Shown here piece by piece: positions 15,314-23,426 of a DNA stretch of 33,919 bases. The translations under genes were made by a program, and so were the position numbers. Within the stretch, counting starts at the first letter, position 1, and every line of letters starts with the position of its first letter. The DNA lies in assembly GCA_022750335.1 (NCBI GenBank), contig JAKIVX010000017.1, forward strand, positions 1 through 33,919, read 5' to 3'. The DNA comes from Thermoplasmata archaeon. GTDB taxonomy: Archaea; Thermoplasmatota; Thermoplasmata; Lutacidiplasmatales; UBA184. The notes beneath the pieces were generated by a model. It did not search any database. It saw only the letters and a program-made list of their open reading frames with translations, and was not told the DNA's origin.

Positions 15314-16258
15314 CTAGGCGACGGGGCGGTAGAGCGTCCAGAGCGAGAGCGCGCCGTGGAACCCCTCCTTGTCGAGGGCCGCCCGTCCGGTCACGTTCGA
15401 GACCGGGACCTCCGTCGCGATCCGGAGGGCCTTGCGAGCGGCGCACCAGGCGCCGGCGGCGCGGACCATCTCCGCGACCAGCGCCGGGTCGGCCGTGGCG
15501 GCCACGATCGGGTCGCTGACGTGGGCCGCGTCCGTGTCCTGAGGGCGGATGGCGAGGATCGCGGCCTCCGCACCGTTCCCCCGGTCGACGACCCACGTCG
15601 CCCGCTCGGCCGGGAAGATCCGTTGTTCGATCCCGCCACCGCCGAGGCCCGTGGTCTTCCGGGGCAACACGCGGGCCACCTCGGCCGGCATCTGGCCCCG
15701 GACGATCGCGAGCAGCGCCGGCTCATCGGACTTCGCGTACGCCCGGATCCCCGGCGGAAGGGAGGAGCGTTCGGGGCCAAAGTCCGTGGGTCGGTCGTGC
15801 ACGACGAACGCTGTCTCCCGCAGAGGGACGTACCCCAGTTTCCCTTCGTAGAGGGCACGAGCCGGCGCATTGTCCGTGAGTACGTCGAGGACGAGGTACT
15901 GCCGCCCGAGCCCCCGCGCGACCTCGCGGGAGCGCTCGAGAAGGGAGCGGGCGTACCCGCGGCGGCGGGTCGCGGGGTCGGTCGCGACCATGCTGATGAA
16001 AACGGAGGGCCCCGGGAAGGTGAGGAGCGTGGTCGCGACCGCCGCGCCGTCCTGGTCCACGACGAGCAGGCGAAAGACCGGTCGACGGAACAGGCGCAGG
16101 AGCCCGATGAGGAGCCGGCTGTCCCAGCGGTAGACCCGGCGGACGACCTTGAAGAACCGATCCGGGTGCGACCCCAGGATCGATTCTTCGGCCGGGAATT
16201 CGGTCGTGAGGAAGCGAACGAGCGTCGGAGTATCGGACGGACGGAAGTCACGGATCAT
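15314..16258 (-). CDS. Tandem GNAT-family N-acetyltransferase
   Basis: A 314-residue protein. Residues 1-170 form a GNAT domain: FRPSDTPTLVRFL start, then VFISMVATDPATRRRGYARSLLERS, with the acetyl-CoA loop RRRGYA, and LDVLTDNAPARALYEGKLGYVPLRE, the usual C-terminal GNAT block. Residues about 180-314 look like a second, more degenerate GNAT domain (PGIRAYAKSDEPALLAIV start; GRAALDKEGFHGALSLWTLYRP end) without an obvious RxxGxG loop. The substrate is unknown. ATG 16258 overlaps the TGA of the HEAT-repeat gene (ATGA), so translation is coupled. Confidence 0.85.
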   Translation of the reverse strand: MIRDFRPSDTPTLVRFLTTEFPAEESILGSHPDRFFKVVRRVYRWDSRLLIGLLRLFRRPVFRLLVVDQDGAAVATTLLTFPGPSVFISMVATDPATRRRGYARSLLERSREVARGLGRQYLVLDVLTDNAPARALYEGKLGYVPLRETAFVVHDRPTDFGPERSSLPPGIRAYAKSDEPALLAIVRGQMPAEVARVLPRKTTGLGGGGIEQRIFPAERATWVVDRGNGAEAAILAIRPQDTDAAHVSDPIVAATADPALVAEMVRAAGAWCAARKALRIATEVPVSNVTGRAALDKEGFHGALSLWTLYRPVA

Positions 16259-17757
16259 CCGGAACTGTCCTCGTCGTAGGGAGTGGCCAGGGCGACTTCG
16301 AACAGCGAACGGAGCGTAGGTACGGGCCGGTCGTCGCCGACCTCCGGCAGCGGGAGTCGGGCGAGCCGGTCGAGCTCCTCGTCCGGAAGCCGGGCGCGCG
16401 CCGCGAGCAACGCCGCTTGGACCACCGGGTCGTCGCCCCCGTGGGGCATCCGGCCGAGGGCCTGGACGATCGCATCGAACAGCCGGCTCTCGGCGTCCGA
16501 GCGTAGGACGTCGTCCTCCGCTCCGGGGGCGGGACTGCTCTCGAGGCAGGGCCCGCTCCGCAGGAGGCGAACGAGCTCCTCTCGCGCCCCGTCGTCCCCG
16601 AGGCGGCCGACCGCCCACACCGCGGCGAGTCGGACCTCCGGGGCGGGGTCCGTGAGTTCCTCCCGGATCCGCGGCGCGGCGGCCGCCAGACCGAGGTGGC
16701 CGAGGGCGTACGTCGCGCCCCGCCGGGGCCAGGGGTGATTGTCCTCGAGGAGGTCGAGCAGGCGCGCGAGATCGTCCGAGATCCCCACCGCGCCGAGCGC
16801 GATCGCGGCCGCTCCGCGGACGGGCCATGCGACGTCCGTGAGACCGCGGAGGGCGACCGCCCGGGCCTCGTCCCCGCCCAGTTCTCCGAGTGCGTGGACG
16901 GCACAGACCCGGAGCCAGTGCTGTGGACTTTCAGCGGCCACGACGAGCGCCGGGACCGCCCCTCGGTCGCCGATGCGGCCGAGGGCGACGAGCACCGACG
17001 GTTTCTCCCAGGTCTCCTTCTGGCCGAGGATCTCGAGGAGGCGGGGGAGCGCGTCCCGGTCGTGGAGTCGGCCGGAGATGACGGCGGCCGCGGCCCGCAC
17101 CCGACGCGACGGGTCGTCCAACATGGAGCGGACCAGTCGAAGTACCTCGGGACGTCCGGCCCGGCCGAGGCCGAGCACAGACTCGCGACGGACCCGGTCC
17201 GAGGGGTCGGCGAGGAGTCCTTCGAGGGCGAGATGGGCCTCGGGGGTACCGATCCGTCCCAACGTACGAGCGACGGCCAATCGGACTTCCCACGTGAGGT
17301 CGAGCAGGCAGGTCTCGAGTGCCGCGACCGAGGCGGGATCGGCCGCACTCCCGAGGGCATCCGCGGCCTTTCGGCGTACGTGCGCGTCCGGGTCGGCGAG
17401 CGCGGACTCGAGGGCCGCGCGGGTGTCGGGCCGGCCGGCCGGGCCGAGCGCTTCCGCGGCGCTCCCGCGCACCGCCGGGTCCGGATCCTGCAGCGCCGCC
17501 GCCAGCGTCGTAGCGGCGCGAGGGTCCGCGAGCAGTCCGAGCGCGATCGCAGCGGTCTGCCGCACTCCCGGTACCGGATCGCTGAGGGCTACGAGGAGCG
17601 GCGTTAGGTCCTCGACCCGTCCCCGTCGGGCCGTCGCGCGGATCGCCGCGGCCCGCTCGGACGGCAGGAGCCCTCCCACGGTCCGGGTCGAACGGCGGGC
17701 GGCCTTCCGGCGCACCGACGGGCGAGGATGGGCCGGGCGACGAACGCGCGGGGCCAC
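16255..17757 (-). CDS. HEAT-repeat (PBS-lyase type) scaffold protein
   Basis: A 500-residue protein consisting, from about residue 45 to 430, of roughly a dozen HEAT repeats of about 31 residues, each with the pattern 'D-----VR--AA-ALG--G'. Examples are DPAVRGSAAEALGPAGRP and DRVRRESVLGLGRAGRP. Such E-Z type repeats act as protein-binding scaffolds; no catalytic domain is seen. The N-terminal 30 residues are very basic. GTG 17757 is chosen because a TATA-like CGTTTTAGC lies 26 bases upstream. It leads the operon HEAT-GNAT-glycosyltransferase, with an ATGA overlap to the GNAT gene. The partner is unknown. Confidence 0.85.
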   Translation of the reverse strand: MAPRVRRPAHPRPSVRRKAARRSTRTVGGLLPSERAAAIRATARRGRVEDLTPLLVALSDPVPGVRQTAAIALGLLADPRAATTLAAALQDPDPAVRGSAAEALGPAGRPDTRAALESALADPDAHVRRKAADALGSAADPASVAALETCLLDLTWEVRLAVARTLGRIGTPEAHLALEGLLADPSDRVRRESVLGLGRAGRPEVLRLVRSMLDDPSRRVRAAAAVISGRLHDRDALPRLLEILGQKETWEKPSVLVALGRIGDRGAVPALVVAAESPQHWLRVCAVHALGELGGDEARAVALRGLTDVAWPVRGAAAIALGAVGISDDLARLLDLLEDNHPWPRRGATYALGHLGLAAAAPRIREELTDPAPEVRLAAVWAVGRLGDDGAREELVRLLRSGPCLESSPAPGAEDDVLRSDAESRLFDAIVQALGRMPHGGDDPVVQAALLAARARLPDEELDRLARLPLPEVGDDRPVPTLRSLFEVALATPYDEDSSG

Positions 17758-17844: not shown

Positions 17845-18354
17845 TTACCTCGTTCGGACCCGGCACTTCGGACAGGGCGGGGACATGATGTTTCCGGGCG
17901 CGACGAAGAACTGCACCCGCTCGGTCCCGTGGCGGAAGCAGACGAACAGCCGGAACACGGTGCCGTCCTTCTTTTTGAACGGGTAGAGCCGCCAGTAGAC
18001 CGTCGACACCGCCCGCGGGGGATGGACGCGCGCGAGGTACCGTTCCGCCTCGGCTCCCAGCTCCGGGCCGTGCCGCCGGGCGAGCCGTAGGTCGCGGCGA
18101 CGGACGAGGGTCGCGGGTGTGGTGTGGGCCCGGACGAACGGAAGAAGGCGCGCCGTGGGGTCGGCGTTCGACCACTCGGAGTACGTGATGACCGAGACGG
18201 CCCCGCCGGGACACGCGTACACGCACAGCCAACCCGGTGCGAGGGCCCGGAGGTTGTGTCCGCGCTGCGGGCGGTCGCAGTGCCGGTGGCAGTGCGGGGT
18301 GCGCGGAGCGAGGGCCCGGCGGAGCAGCGGAGGGACGACCCCCGTGCGCCTCAC
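17845..18354 (-). CDS. Cys/His-rich protein, end of the polymerase cassette
   Basis: A 169-residue protein that I do not recognise. The N-terminal third has a possible zinc site: HCHRHCDRPQRGHN then CVYACPGG (Cys22, 26, 44, 48 with nearby His). The middle is basic and helical. The C-terminal third is beta-rich: STVYWRLYPFKKKDGTVFRL, then a closing CPKC. This could be a nucleic-acid-binding protein, but nothing proves that. GTG 18354 overlaps the TGA of the thioredoxin-fold gene (GTGA), so it is coupled to that gene and hence belongs to the same operon as the divergent polymerase. It ends 87 bases before the HEAT gene start. Confidence 0.65.
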   Translation of the reverse strand: MRRTGVVPPLLRRALAPRTPHCHRHCDRPQRGHNLRALAPGWLCVYACPGGAVSVITYSEWSNADPTARLLPFVRAHTTPATLVRRRDLRLARRHGPELGAEAERYLARVHPPRAVSTVYWRLYPFKKKDGTVFRLFVCFRHGTERVQFFVAPGNIMSPPCPKCRVRTR

Positions 18355-18698
18355 CCGCTCGCTCCCCGGATGAGGGTCCGAAGCCAGGCGCTCCGCAACA
18401 GGTCCGCCCACGCGCGGGCCGTGCGCGGCACCTCCTCGGAGAATCCGGTGAGGAGGTGTTGGACGCGTCCGTCCGACCATTCGAGGAACACCTGGGGGAT
18501 GAGGTAATCCGGTGCGGAGTCCCCGTAGCGCCGCACGAGCCGGTCCGCTTCCTTCTCCTGGGCTGCGTGGTCGATGTCGAGCAGTCGGAGGGGGATCTTC
18601 AGGCGACGGGCGAGGCGGTTTCCCTCGGTCACGGACAGCGGTTCGCAGTGCGGGCACCACGGGGCGAGGACGATGGTCAACCGCTTTGGTTCTGCCAC
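18351..18698 (-). CDS. Thioredoxin/glutaredoxin-fold protein with CPHC
   Basis: A 115-residue protein with a thioredoxin-like fold: KRLTIVLAPWCPHCEPLSV gives the first strand and active site CPHC, then LKIPLRLLDIDH and DYLIPQVFLEWSDGRVQHLLTGF supply the remaining strands, with the cis-proline probably in YLIPQVF. It is cytoplasmic (no signal peptide). CPHC is the DsbA-type dipeptide, unusual for a cytoplasmic reductant. The start is GTG 18698, preceded by GAGGGAGGG; a longer version from GTG 18770 would overlap the polymerase stop (GTGA). Its function in the polymerase cassette is unknown; redox control of a partner is possible. Confidence 0.75.
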   Translation of the reverse strand: MAEPKRLTIVLAPWCPHCEPLSVTEGNRLARRLKIPLRLLDIDHAAQEKEADRLVRRYGDSAPDYLIPQVFLEWSDGRVQHLLTGFSEEVPRTARAWADLLRSAWLRTLIRGASG

Positions 18699-18766
18699 GG
18701 CCCTCCCTCGGACGGAACCGGGACGGCGCGCCTCCAGAAAGGTTCGCGGGGTCCCGAGCTGCTCCG

Positions 18767-21097
18767 TCACCCCGCCCCGTCGAGCGCCACCCCGTCCAGG
18801 ACCGACTGGGCCGTGCTCTCGGGAGATCGGTACGGGTCCCGGTCGACGCGTCCCCCGTACCCCCACCGCTCGAGGAGCCCGTCCCGCGCGACGCCGAACG
18901 GCCCGAGCAGCGTCTCCGCGGCCCGGGCGAGGATCTCGAGGTAGGCGTCGGGGTCGTACCGCTCGCCGCCGGTCAGTAGCTCCTCGGGGCGGACCCGCTC
19001 GCGGAAGGAGCGGCTCGTCCGGTCGAGGACGACGTACCGGACGACCTCCCCCGGCTGGCGCGAGGCACCGGCCTGCTCGAGCTGGCGGAGGGCCGCGACG
19101 GAGTCGGTGAACGTGACGAACGCGTCGCTCGCCTGCCCGATCCGGTGCGAGATGACCAGCTCCTCCACGGGCCAGGCGCCGGCCCGGACCTGCGAGGCGA
19201 ACCCGTCCGCCCGCCGGAGCGCGCGCGGGAGCCGGGCCCGGAACTCGTCCGGACCGGGGGCCGCGCGGAACAGGTCGAGCATCTCGGTCTCGAACCGGCG
19301 GACGAGCCCCGTCGTGTCGTGCCGTCGCCCCCCGATCCCCCGGAGCTTGAACTCGCCGCTCTCGTAGACCCCGTAGTACCGGTTCGGCACCCCGAGCCCG
19401 TGCGTCACCGCGGGGAGGAAGACGATCCAGCGGTACCGTCCCTCGTAGCCGAGCGGCAGGTCCGTGCGCGCGCTCACGCTCCGGGCGAACGCGTTCGGGT
19501 CGGGCGGATGGGCGGGGTCCGTCGGGGCAAGCCAGAGCGAATCGACGATCCCGTGGACGACCCGGTAGCCGACGCGCTCGGCCGCCGGGATGAGGTCGGC
19601 GAGCAGCTCGCGCGCGTAGGCGTTGATCGCCTCGTGGCACTCGATCCGGCCGAACCGGGCGTTCCGGTACCCCTGGTAGCCGAACGCCGTCACGAGGATC
19701 CACTTCAGCATCTTGACGCGTCCGGTGAGGCGCGCCCGCTCCTCGGCGGGGAGCGAGAGGTCCTTGGCGGCGGCCTTGTAGGCGATGCGCCGGGTGAGGA
19801 GCGGCTCGAGCGTCCGGGGGATGAGCCCGACCGAACGGGTGCACGAGCGGTAGCCGAGCCCGGGGGCGCGGATCGGGCTCGCCGGGCAGCATCGGCACTC
19901 GAGCGTCTCCGCCGAGAGGTTCTTCCGGACCATGATGTGGGGAAAGAGGCTCGCGAAATCGAACTCGTCCACCGGTCCGAAGACGCCGACGGGCGGGACG
20001 AAGATCACCCCGCCCCGGTCGGCGGCGACCAACCGGTCGGCGCGCCGGAACGATTCGGGGCGGTTCTTCTTCCACGGGACGTGGAGCCCGCGGCGCAGCG
20101 CCTCCGCCATCTCCATCGCGGTGAAGCATGTGCCCGGCGACTGGCGGGCGACGGTCGAGAGCGAGAGCCGGGAGAGCCGGGCTGCGTCGACGAGTCCCGC
20201 GAGGTCCGCGTCGTCGAAGAGGAACGAGTTCTCCCGGTCGAGGTGGAAGCGGCCGGGGAGCGGGTACGTGGCCGAACGGTACAGGATCCGGCCGTAGGTC
20301 TCGAACGAGCGGGCGGCGCGCGCGGGCCGGAACCCGACCGGTTCGCGTCCGAGGGCGAACTCCTGCGGACCGAGGCCGAGCGCGGCGGCCCGCCGGTACA
20401 GCCACGGCAGGTCGAGCGCGTCCCCGCCGTCCGTGAGGAGCACGTCCGGGTCGGTGCGCGCGAGCTCGCCGACGAGCGCCCGCAAGAGGTCCTCCTCGGG
20501 GCCCTCGAGCGTCGCGTCGCCGAGGCGGATCGAGGCGATCCGTCCCTCCGCGGGCGGCAGCCGCCCGTGGTGCGGCCCGTCCAGCGTGACCGCGAGCCGG
20601 GCGACCACGAGCGGCGGGGGCGTGTAGTGGACGGTCTCGGCCGGTTCGGTCGCGCGGATCGCGGCGCCGTGCCCGACGACCGGGGCGAACGGGTAGAGGT
20701 CGTGGGCGAGGTGGTAGAGCTGCGGCGGGGAGAGGTCGACGTCGAAGAGCGTGTAGCGGACGAACCCCCCGAGCTCGTCCACCGACCGGGCGAGGGAGCG
20801 GCGCGCAGCGTTCCGGGTCGGGATGACCTCGAGGACGGAGCGTGGGCGGTGGTCGAAGATGGACGGGCGGAGGACGACGCGTCGGACCCGCTCGACCGTC
20901 GCGCGCCCCTCCAGTCGGGGCCGGAGGTCGTCGAGGTCGCTCCGAGCTCCCACCACGAAGAACGGCGGCCGGTACTCGACCGCCGTGCGGTGCACGCGCG
21001 CCGTCGTCCGCTCCTTCGTCCAGAGGACGACCGAGCGTCCGTCCGGACTCTCCGTGATGTCGAGGAGCCACGCGTCCGGCGGCGGGGTTCCCGCCAC
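18767..21097 (-). CDS. Divergent family B DNA polymerase (PolB2-like)
   Basis: A 776-residue protein with the family B layout. Motif A is EFDFASLFPHIM (Asp380). Motif B is degenerate, KWILVTAFGY, keeping Lys465 and Gly473 but with Val-Thr in place of Asn-Ser. Motif C reads HGIVDS instead of YGDTDS, keeping the second, metal-binding Asp519 and losing the first. The 'KxRG' block is present (GEFKLRGIG). In the exonuclease domain (about 160-330) the Exo I Asp-x-Glu is not found (LAVTLDG) and Exo II is altered (LLTDGGDALDLPWL), so proofreading is probably absent. These traits fit the archaeal PolB2 group rather than a replicative polymerase. GTG 21097 follows the 84-residue gene by 2 bases. Synthesis activity is plausible, since both metal-binding Asp residues remain. 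Confidence 0.85.
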   Translation of the reverse strand: MAGTPPPDAWLLDITESPDGRSVVLWTKERTTARVHRTAVEYRPPFFVVGARSDLDDLRPRLEGRATVERVRRVVLRPSIFDHRPRSVLEVIPTRNAARRSLARSVDELGGFVRYTLFDVDLSPPQLYHLAHDLYPFAPVVGHGAAIRATEPAETVHYTPPPLVVARLAVTLDGPHHGRLPPAEGRIASIRLGDATLEGPEEDLLRALVGELARTDPDVLLTDGGDALDLPWLYRRAAALGLGPQEFALGREPVGFRPARAARSFETYGRILYRSATYPLPGRFHLDRENSFLFDDADLAGLVDAARLSRLSLSTVARQSPGTCFTAMEMAEALRRGLHVPWKKNRPESFRRADRLVAADRGGVIFVPPVGVFGPVDEFDFASLFPHIMVRKNLSAETLECRCCPASPIRAPGLGYRSCTRSVGLIPRTLEPLLTRRIAYKAAAKDLSLPAEERARLTGRVKMLKWILVTAFGYQGYRNARFGRIECHEAINAYARELLADLIPAAERVGYRVVHGIVDSLWLAPTDPAHPPDPNAFARSVSARTDLPLGYEGRYRWIVFLPAVTHGLGVPNRYYGVYESGEFKLRGIGGRRHDTTGLVRRFETEMLDLFRAAPGPDEFRARLPRALRRADGFASQVRAGAWPVEELVISHRIGQASDAFVTFTDSVAALRQLEQAGASRQPGEVVRYVVLDRTSRSFRERVRPEELLTGGERYDPDAYLEILARAAETLLGPFGVARDGLLERWGYGGRVDRDPYRSPESTAQSVLDGVALDGAG

Positions 21098-21099
21098 GG

Positions 21100-21354
21100 C
21101 TAGCGGTGGGCCGGCCGGGCCGTCTCGTCCGCCGGGAGGCGGCGGGCGAGGTCCAGGAGGACGGAGAGGAGGATCGACTCGAGGAGGTCGGGACTCCCGA
21201 CGTACGTCGCCTGGGCGACGTAGCGGCGGGCGCCGAGCCGGAGCGTCTCGAACGCCGCCCGTTCCTCGGGCGTCGTCAAGAGCCGCGCGAACTCGTCCCA
21301 GCGCTTCAGCCGCTCCTCGAGGGCCTGGCGGTACGTCGGGACGGTGCGCCCCAT
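21100..21354 (-). CDS. Small helical protein of the PolB2-like cassette
   Basis: An 84-residue, mostly helical protein starting MGRTVPTYRQALEERLKRW. As I recall, small archaeal proteins with the same MGRT-PTYR start and a W---RRAL-like helix are widespread in euryarchaea (for example haloarchaea) and uncharacterised; that memory could not be checked here. A second helical half (LLESILLSVLLDLARRL) follows. The ATG at 21354 has an ideal GGAGGTGAT 4 bases upstream and overlaps the end of the RadA-like gene by 49 bases; the stop lies 2 bases before the polymerase start. The tight packing suggests a stoichiometric partner of the polymerase or of the RadA-like protein. Confidence 0.8.
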   Translation of the reverse strand: MGRTVPTYRQALEERLKRWDEFARLLTTPEERAAFETLRLGARRYVAQATYVGSPDLLESILLSVLLDLARRLPADETARPAHR

Positions 21355-22175
21355 GCGATCACCTCCCCGGCGGCCCCGCCGCCGAACTCCTCGATCCCCC
21401 GCTGGCCCGGCGGCCGCGCGACGAGCGCGAGGCGGGCGTCGTCCCGGAGGGCCCGGAGGCGGAGCGCTCCCGGCCCGCGGGCGAAGGTGACGAGGTCGCA
21501 CCAGGGCGGCCCGGCGTCGTCGAGGCCGGGGAAGGTCGTCGCGCCGCTCGGGTCGAGGGTCAGGAGCAGCGGGACACGGAGCGATTCGGAGAGCTCGCGC
21601 AGCGTCCCGGCGACGTGGCGGAGGAGGGCGGCCCGCTCGTCCTCGGGGATGTCGTCGATCGAGAAGGCGGCGGGAAGGTCGTGGCCGACGAGGAGCGTCG
21701 GCGGGTGCCGTCGCGCCTCGGCCGACCAGGCATCCACGAGCGCGACCATCTGGTAGGCCGTGAACGAGCGGGCGAGGCGGATCCGTCGCAGGACCTCGGC
21801 CGCGTCCACGCCGAGCCCACGTCCGACCTCGCCGAGCCGGTACGGGTTGAAACGGTTCGACCCTTCGAGCAGCGAGATGCGGCCGCGGCCGAGCGCGTTC
21901 CCCGCGTAGAGGAGCTCGAGGACCGGGTCGATAGCGGCGCGCGCACCCGTCCAGAGCGTGAGTTGGCCCGGGGCAAAGCGACGGGCGAGCCAGGGAAAGA
22001 GCGCCGGGGACGACGGAAGTCCCACCCGAGTCCGGGCCCGGTGGAGGCGGGGAGCGAGGCGGAACCGGGCGGGAAGGCGCGGCGGTCGCCGGACCGAGGT
22101 CTCCTCCGCCGGGAACGGGACCGGCAGGGGCTCCTCTCCGAGGAGGTGTTCGGGGATCGCGAAGACATCCATCAT
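21306..22175 (-). CDS. RadA/RecA-like protein lacking Walker A
   Basis: A 289-residue protein. The core resembles RadA: FAPGQLTLWTGARAAIDPVLELLY aligns with the P-loop region, LLEGSNRFNPYRLGEVGRGLG matches RadA's 'vDsEgtFrpeRi----er-g', and EVLRRIRLARSFTAYQMVALV matches 'evl-nI--aRa-nsdhq--lv'. At the P-loop the GxxxxGK[ST] is missing (WTGARAAID), so ATP binding is doubtful. The N-terminal 60 residues are Pro/Arg-rich and unlike RadA. ATG 22175 (or 22172) is used because the frame upstream crosses a TATA-like CTTTAGAG. It is first in the operon with the small protein and the polymerase; by analogy it could play the part ImuA plays with DnaE2 in bacteria. Confidence 0.75.
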   Translation of the reverse strand: MMDVFAIPEHLLGEEPLPVPFPAEETSVRRPPRLPARFRLAPRLHRARTRVGLPSSPALFPWLARRFAPGQLTLWTGARAAIDPVLELLYAGNALGRGRISLLEGSNRFNPYRLGEVGRGLGVDAAEVLRRIRLARSFTAYQMVALVDAWSAEARRHPPTLLVGHDLPAAFSIDDIPEDERAALLRHVAGTLRELSESLRVPLLLTLDPSGATTFPGLDDAGPPWCDLVTFARGPGALRLRALRDDARLALVARPPGQRGIEEFGGGAAGEVIAWGAPSRRTARPSRSG

Positions 22176-22208
22176 CGACCGACCGGGACCGCTCGACGGC
22201 CGGGGCCG

Positions 22209-22216
22209 CTCTAAAG
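22209..22216 (-). promoter_or_regulatory. Probable TATA box of the polymerase cassette
   Basis: CTTTAGAG on the minus strand, about 37 bases before ATG 22175. It is the only AT-rich element close upstream, and an inverted repeat lies just beyond it (22234-22268). Confidence 0.4.
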
Positions 22217-22233
22217 CGACCGCTCGGGGGGCG

Positions 22234-22268
22234 TTGAAACGGCTCGGGAACGGGGCGTTTCCCTTCAA
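22234..22268. repeat. Inverted repeat upstream of the polymerase cassette
   Basis: Arms TTGAAACG (22234-22241) and CGTTTC-CC-TTCAA (22256-22268), perfect except for a 2-base insertion, with a 14-base spacer. It could be an operator for the RadA-like/PolB operon or a hairpin at the end of the upstream minus-strand gene (stop at 22350). Confidence 0.4.
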
Positions 22269-22661: not shown

Positions 22662-23426
22662 CTAGTCGAGACGCGCCCGGCCTGGGGGCAGTGGCAGGCC
22701 GAGCATCTCGGAAAGCGTGCGTGCGTTGGTCGCCGCGTCCCCCCGGAAGTGGTTGTTGAAGAACCCGTAGACCACGGGGACGTGCTCGGCGAGGGTACGC
22801 ACTTGCGGGGCCCACGCCTCGAGCTGGGCGGGAGAGTAGGTGTAGTCGTACCAAAGGGGCGAACCGTGACCATGCCATCGGATGTAGGCGAACGGCGCCG
22901 TGATCTCGAGCTGGGCGGGCAGGTGGGGCTCGTCGGCGACGACGTAGGCGAGTCCGAACTCGCGCAGGAGCTCGAACGATTCCGGGGCCACCCACGACCG
23001 CTCCCGGAACTCGACCGCGACCGGGAGGTCCCGTGGGAGCGTCGCGTAGAACGCCCGCACGGTCGCAACCTCGAACGCGAGCGAGGGCGGCAGCTGGAGG
23101 AGCGCGGCCGCGAACTTGCCGGCCCGTCGGATCGGCTCGAGGACGGCGAGGAACCGCGCGAGCTCGTCGTCCGTGCCGACCAGGCGGAGGTCGTGCGTGA
23201 TCGTCTGCGGAAACTTCGCCGCGAACCGGAATCTCGCCGGGGTCCGTCGTACCCAGCTGGCCGCCACGGCGGGCGGCGGGAGGCGGTAGAAGGTCGAGTT
23301 CACCTCGACGATCGGGTACAGCCCCGCGTAGTAGCGCAGCTTGTCCGACGTGCCGTGCTTGGGGTAGACCCGCCCGACCCACTCGGGGTAATCCCAGCCG
23401 CTCGTCCCCAGGAGGATCTCGCCCAC
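22662..23426 (-). CDS. DUF72 (YecE-like) TIM-barrel protein
   Basis: A 254-residue protein with DUF72 landmarks throughout: ILLGTSGWDYPEWVGRVYP at the N-terminus, YPIVEVNSTFYRLP, ARFRFAAKFPQTITHD, LPVAVEFRERSW, and YIRWHGHGSP, ending in VYGFFNNHFRGDAATNA. The family is a TIM barrel of unknown biochemical function found across bacteria and archaea; residues near SGW, NSTFY, K and the NNH motif form the presumed active pocket and are intact. GTG 23426 lies about 35 bases from GGACTTAACC, a TATA-like element. The neighbour upstream is a P-loop protein on the same strand, 53 bases away. Confidence 0.92.
   Translation of the reverse strand: MGEILLGTSGWDYPEWVGRVYPKHGTSDKLRYYAGLYPIVEVNSTFYRLPPPAVAASWVRRTPARFRFAAKFPQTITHDLRLVGTDDELARFLAVLEPIRRAGKFAAALLQLPPSLAFEVATVRAFYATLPRDLPVAVEFRERSWVAPESFELLREFGLAYVVADEPHLPAQLEITAPFAYIRWHGHGSPLWYDYTYSPAQLEAWAPQVRTLAEHVPVVYGFFNNHFRGDAATNARTLSEMLGLPLPPGRARLD

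Follow-up and report, generated by a model that had tools for sequence, protein, structure and literature searches.

A probable PolB2 mutasome operon in a Thermoplasmata archaeon and a conserved promoter box also found before class II ribonucleotide reductase genes

In bacteria, the ImuA-ImuB-DnaE2 cassette brings a RecA-like protein and a specialised polymerase together in one operon, with DnaE2 belonging to polymerase family C and ImuB being Y-family-like. In archaea, a PolB2 mutasome composed of the polymerase PolB2 (Dpo2), the RadA-like protein iRadA and the small protein PPB2 (arCOG07300) has been described (Timinskas et al. 2025, PMC11791011), and its operon was also reported by Makarova et al. 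2014 (PMC4104785). The published marks include neighbouring genes that all point one way, a degenerate exonuclease site, a D(K/R) pair before the palm, a clamp-binding motif in a fraction of the members, and a helical PPB2 of ~90 amino acids with an N-terminal MGRT and R9, which was modelled as a trimer (PMC11791011). Homologous Dpo2 is described as an extender polymerase, that of S. islandicus prolonging mismatched ends past lesions; it is reported to be accurate on undamaged DNA, yet to be the sole source of targeted mutagenesis (PMC7390963, PMC8764526), and damage induction and targeted mutagenesis have been reported in Sulfolobales (PMC11791011; PMC7390963, PMC8764526). Here we describe a locus on a stretch of 33,919 nucleotides from a Thermoplasmata archaeon (hereafter the window; contig C19 of a 1.6-Mb genome, 72% complete), in which iRadA, PPB2 and polB2 genes follow one another on the minus strand behind a conserved promoter box. 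With high confidence, this operon is a PolB2 mutasome, because its proteins carry the marks given for PolB2, iRadA and PPB2 in PMC11791011 and PMC4104785. As a member of the published system the cassette is not new; the novelty is the box and its sharing with ribonucleotide reductase (RNR). The present analysis itself established which genes these are, the family marks they carry, how far their order and overlap are conserved, and the promoter box.

The three proteins and their conservation

The family set comprises 70 loci, the window's own included, in which genes were detected by tblastn at E 1e-3; the closest named relatives among the best 80 loci are metagenome-assembled genomes (MAGs) labelled 'Thermoplasmata archaeon'. 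The first gene, iRadA (21306-22175, minus strand), encodes 289 amino acids from its ATG, scores barely over the Pfam Rad51 cut-off (22.2 against 22) and aligns with DMC1/RadA chains; its predicted structure has a RadA/Rad51 fold (predicted local distance difference test, pLDDT, 83) with Dmc1, RadA and Rad51 as the best PDB matches. A Walker A pattern was found in none of 63 iRadA sequences (the window and 62 relatives), in agreement with the earlier note on this DNA, which had described a RadA-like protein without a P-loop. By pattern, a PCNA-binding-like QRGIEEF lies near the C-terminus of the window's iRadA, and the PIP-like pattern QxxLxxF occurs in 59/63 iRadA tails of the family, with 0.4 expected from shuffled tails. 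The ATG at 22175 or the next codon is preferred as the start over a longer TTG start at 22268, because the latter would lie upstream of the promoter element described below.

The second gene, PPB2 (21100-21354, minus strand), encodes 84 amino acids and had no match in Pfam and NCBIfam searches; its predicted structure consists of three helices (pLDDT 80), and its assignment comes from agreement with the published motif description (PMC11791011). The window's protein begins with MGRTVPTYR, and GRT[VAS]PTY stands at the start of 64/64 family sequences, with M1, G2, R3 and T4 invariant and R9 nearly so across 30 alignment rows.

The third gene encodes PolB2 (18767-21097, minus strand; 776 amino acids), which the earlier note had rightly called a divergent family B polymerase: it matches DNA_pol_B (PF00136) with 58 bits against a cut-off of 23, and the best NCBIfam match, a PRK05761-type model (5e-122, 408.5 bits), stays below the model's own cut-off of 692. 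The protein keeps the motif A aspartate (DFASLFP), the motif B lysine and the second motif C aspartate, while its motif C reads GIVDS, so that the first aspartate of DxD is lost. Across the family PolB2 sequences, motif A was found in 68/70 and motif C as xVDS in 70/70, with DxD in 0/70; the Dpo2 of S. islandicus is likewise without DxD (PMC11791011). The pair D360 R361 before the palm is invariant in 18/18 alignment rows, and its register with the DK motif of S. islandicus appears probable. In the aligned exonuclease region, which we take to be the one named Exo II, the asparagine is replaced (TDGGDALD against TYNGDNFD); the comparison covered this one exonuclease motif. Polymerase matches were present in 98/101 family genomes, some of them only as a weaker family B polymerase match. 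Two tail-to-tail polB2 copies were seen on one contig of genome G065 (L030, C153:6071-10654), which may be an assembly artefact.

Within the window, the iRadA and PPB2 open reading frames (ORFs) overlap by 49 bases (21306-21354), and PPB2 and PolB2 are separated by a gap of 2 bases (21098-21099); both lengths given by the earlier note proved exact on re-reading the ORF coordinates. In 52 of the 63 loci the two genes share exactly 49 bases and, therefore, the start of PPB2 and the tail of iRadA are encoded by the same DNA. Of the family loci, 70 contained PolB2, 64 PPB2 and 63 iRadA; a profile search added four PPB2, all from genus g4, and iRadA is absent from L059, where the contig ends. The order iRadA-PPB2-PolB2 on one strand was maintained in 63/70 loci, which excludes a chance arrangement, while in G001 (L033) the operon is split, and the contig that carries PolB2 is a different one from that of PPB2 and iRadA. 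Over the phylum, PPB2 was detected in 80/243 genomes. Of 74 PPB2 loci examined (73 from 72 out-of-family genomes and one in the family, with loci cut by contig ends kept), 57 contained PolB2 in the ~4 kb around PPB2, 61 contained iRadA and 52 contained the two together. A convergent arrangement, with iRadA on the opposite strand and downstream of PolB2, was observed in 20/52 phylum loci (families f22 and f30).

The proposal of the earlier note that the locus is a candidate archaeal mutasome thus stands as regards the three proteins, which belong together and carry the published marks, but not as regards a new candidate, since the system had already been described. The locus resembles the published PolB2 mutasome in its gene trio, gene order, MGRT arm, inactive RadA, motif C change, DUF72 neighbour and clamp-binding-like iRadA motif, and differs from it in a local thioredoxin-like insertion and in the promoter box common to RNR. 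The same note had also seen in it a counterpart of ImuA, ImuB and DnaE2. That comparison holds at most as an analogy: a RecA-like protein and a specialised polymerase share an operon in both, but the polymerase here is of family B, not a C-family DnaE2, and the small protein is PPB2, which the bacterial cassette does not contain; membership in that system was rejected on the polymerase family. The E. coli Pol V mutasome (UmuC, UmuD'2, RecA) is similar in that a RecA-family protein and a small oligomer hold the polymerase (PMC11791011), although its polymerase is of the Y family and its RecA is active. Among open-licence papers, PMC11791011 was the only one found to treat iRadA with PPB2. As for the recruitment of an error-prone polymerase, also put forward in the earlier note, the homologous Dpo2 is described as accurate on undamaged DNA and nevertheless solely responsible for targeted mutagenesis.

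A promoter box at the operon and before RNR genes

Upstream of iRadA, a conserved block was recognised in the family that consists of GAAAC-N14-18-GTTTC, ~20 bases, and then CTTTAGAG or CTTAA. In the window, the box, a candidate operator, is an exact inverted repeat GAAAC-N16-GTTTC (22236-22261, minus strand), and the TATA-like promoter element GCTTTAGAGC (22208-22217, minus strand) follows 18 bases after it and lies 32 bases before the iRadA ATG. Sufficient iRadA sequence was available in 61 family loci, of which 33, 51 and 52 have the box at up to 0, 1 and 2 mismatches, respectively, against 0.04, 0.96 and 8.38 expected from shuffled upstreams. Word counts in the upstream DNA clearly surpass those of shuffled sequence for 10-mers (26, shuffled 8-10) and 12-mers (22, shuffled 3-4), some of these words being DUF72 coding DNA, but for 8-mers the margin is slight (31, shuffled maximum 26-27). 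Each of the three separated genes of G001 is preceded by a box, which lies 52 bases before PolB2, ~65 before iRadA and 174 before PPB2. The combined pattern GTTTC-N14-19-GCTTTAGAGC matched in 12/49 genomes, in 11 of them once only, at the mutasome operon. In the remaining genome, G050, the pattern recurs in front of a further iRadA-like ORF (L243, C83) with the same promoter, and this ORF could be a paralogue or MAG contamination.

The window's genome holds five exact box sites against three for the reversed control pattern, and only two were judged credible, namely the one at the operon and one before a class II RNR gene (PF02867 1.9e-84, PF08471 2.1e-12). The latter (G000:C20:29537-29563) is a perfect inverted repeat with 11-base arms. 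In the best 30 of 48 genomes by score (28 of the window's genus and two of g5), the RNR box was found in 16, 23 and 29 at up to 0, 1 and 2 mismatches, with 0.02, 0.54 and 4.88 expected, while radA had a box in 1, 1 and 1 of 30 and gyrA in 0, 0 and 2 of 29 (one locus was dropped for short upstream DNA). Exact RNR boxes were also obtained from three g6 genomes. All six two-mismatch RNR sites are changed symmetrically, to GGAAC/GTTCC or GCAAC/GTTGC, as expected for a dimer site, although an RNA helix would fit equally. At the operon (51 loci) and at RNR promoters alike, AT content is highest at offsets 20-22 counted from the end of the box. Three consecutive A/T occur at offsets 14-25 in 47/51 operon and 25/29 RNR promoters, compared with 6 and 3 at offsets 28-39.

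A candidate regulon and its rivals

From the sequence pattern, the box is read as the operator of a small, lineage-limited regulon, perhaps one that responds to damage. Whether it amounts to an SOS-like regulon, in which a dedicated regulator would bind the box beside the TATA element at the mutasome operon and, for part of the family, also at class II RNR, and would thereby couple deoxynucleoside triphosphate (dNTP) supply to translesion synthesis, we consider an evenly balanced question. In single genera, radA or a Cas4-like nuclease perhaps also belongs to it. As regards the machinery, primer extension past lesions would fall to PolB2, which iRadA would anchor by a Rad51-like interface; iRadA would also contribute a PCNA-binding tail, and the MGRT arm of PPB2, a trimer in the published model, would occupy the cleft that PolB2, iRadA and DNA leave between them. 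The trimer and the iRadA binding are published models (PMC11791011), and the modelled assembly, the translesion role and the damage induction reported in Sulfolobales would apply here by analogy with the homologues. In the Thermoplasmata family, a regulator would then bind GAAAC-N14-18-GTTTC next to the TATA element, and where the box is shared, the mutasome and class II RNR would be induced at the same time, with DNA damage as the simplest trigger, and dNTP supply would increase in step with lesion bypass.

Several observations weigh against this regulon. Ten of the 61 operons are without a box at one mismatch, five of 49 in the same genus and five of 12 in other genera, and an exact box (spacers 10-22) was found in 0/73 out-of-family PPB2 loci, at least five of which have <170 bases of upstream DNA. 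The exact RNR box is absent in 11/11 genomes of g2, g3, g4 and g7 and, therefore, the sharing is confined to part of the family. In G010, G037 and G045, the RNR arms are changed (GCAAC/GTTGC or GGAAC/GTTCC) while the operon box stays GAAAC/GTTTC. In G001, the box before PPB2 has a closer neighbour, an ORF in divergent orientation at 41 bases that by eye is ABC-ATPase-like. A box at only one of 30 radA genes is odd for a full damage regulon, and radA was rejected as a general member. Genome-wide counts were 195 box sites against 54 for the reversed pattern in 49 genomes and 136 against 17 in 31 genomes of the genus; this last excess is inflated, because the reversed words are far rarer than GAAAC and GTTTC, and the reversed-pattern control was dropped as support for that reason. 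Independent halves predict ~0.75 pairs/Mb, or ~43 in the ~57 Mb of the 31 genomes, an estimate that itself uses box-carrying loci. Genus g4 showed no excess over the reversed pattern (11 against 19), and many exact sites across the genomes are not promoter-like.

A different reading, possible though less probable than the SOS-like one, is that the box controls dNTP synthesis or growth rather than a damage response, with the mutasome merely coupled to it. This would suit the RNR boxes, which include the most extended palindromes, and the absence of a box, at one mismatch, from radA in 29/30 and gyrA in 29/29. It is countered by genus g7 and G001, in which operon genes carry the box without an exact counterpart before RNR, and pure dNTP control of a mutasome would seem unusual. 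A candidate regulator would be NrdR, whose boxes are palindromic elements before RNR genes; here too a palindrome precedes RNR, but NrdR (TIGR00244) was detected in 0/49 family genomes, with 9/14 control genomes positive, so that it was rejected as the box regulator, which also speaks against dNTP control. The inverted repeat might instead be a transcription terminator or RNA hairpin, which we regard as improbable. Predicted RNA folding at the window's genome sites (-5.8 kcal/mol at the operon and -14.7 kcal/mol at RNR) is compatible with a hairpin, and the symmetrical arm changes in 6/6 two-mismatch RNR sites would suit a helix and a dimer site equally; on the other side, the box stands before three separate genes in G001 and upstream of an AT-rich TATA-like element at an equal distance at both promoter kinds (offsets 20-22), and this constant AT peak favours a DNA operator upstream of TATA over a transcribed hairpin.

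The proteins invite two further alternatives. For this group of polymerases, inactivation with a possible link to origin recognition was proposed in 2014 (PMC4104785), and the loss of the first DxD aspartate from 70/70 family sequences would agree with a dead PolB2 in a structural or replication-initiation role. The retention of the motif A aspartate, the motif B lysine and the second motif C aspartate, together with the robust activity of the S. islandicus Dpo2, which is also without DxD (PMC7390963, PMC8764526), makes such a role highly improbable. Scarcely credible is a fourth mutasome component in the thioredoxin-like protein (18351-18770, minus strand; CPHC; PF00085 at E=0.016, below the cut-off): its ORF overlaps the polymerase ORF by four bases, stop codon counted, but it was detected in 1/70 loci, the window itself, and it was rejected on this count. 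The earlier note had correctly placed this gene and a small ORF of ~100 amino acids (about 17845-18150, minus strand, start uncertain; no Pfam match over cut-off) behind polB2 on the same strand. As parts of the cassette they fail, since the other 69 loci yielded neither of them, and the two genes are probably a local insertion.

To return to the operator reading, an archaeal damage element is known from Saccharolobus, in which Orc1-2 binds the element DDRE, ANTTTC (PMC9738581). Both cases would concern archaeal damage regulation, and TTTC is common to DDRE and the box arm GTTTC; DDRE is, however, a single hexanucleotide, while the box is a spaced inverted repeat (PMC9738581 for DDRE), and we take the common TTTC as a lead, not as evidence of homology. 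Nothing relevant on the box or on a Thermoplasmata damage regulon was found in open-licence papers. The conserved box shared with RNR may be an archaeal damage-response switch. With a cassette conserved across a family of Thermoplasmata MAGs, the box makes it testable how archaea outside Sulfolobales turn on mutagenic repair; it offers a precise DNA bait for the regulator, and it predicts that RNR and the mutasome are co-induced in genera with both boxes.

Further boxes and neighbouring genes

An exact box was observed 35 bases before the start of radA in the genus-g5 genome G005, the other 29 radA loci being without one. In three genomes of genus g7 (L215, L218, L219), a box is flanked by a PD-(D/E)XK/Cas4-like gene and a gene that by eye is VOC-like; in L218, two overlapping frames hold the nuclease match and what is probably its N-terminal part. 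A HEAT-repeat gene, often the next gene after polB2 in the family, occupies 16255-17757 (minus strand) in the window and was found near polB2 in 41/70 family loci. The available text of PMC11791011 contains no mention of 'HEAT', 'promoter' or 'thioredoxin'. Upstream of the operon, a DUF72 protein is encoded at 22662-23426 (minus strand; PF01904 3e-64). DUF72 was located near polB2 in 38/70 loci, a count for which many flanks were only 1.5 kb and the window's own locus was too short to show it, and it has been published as enriched near polB2. Finally, one contig carries both RNR and the mutasome operon, ~17-25 kb from each other, in G042:C21, G036:C56, G046:C7, G033:C20 and G004:C14.

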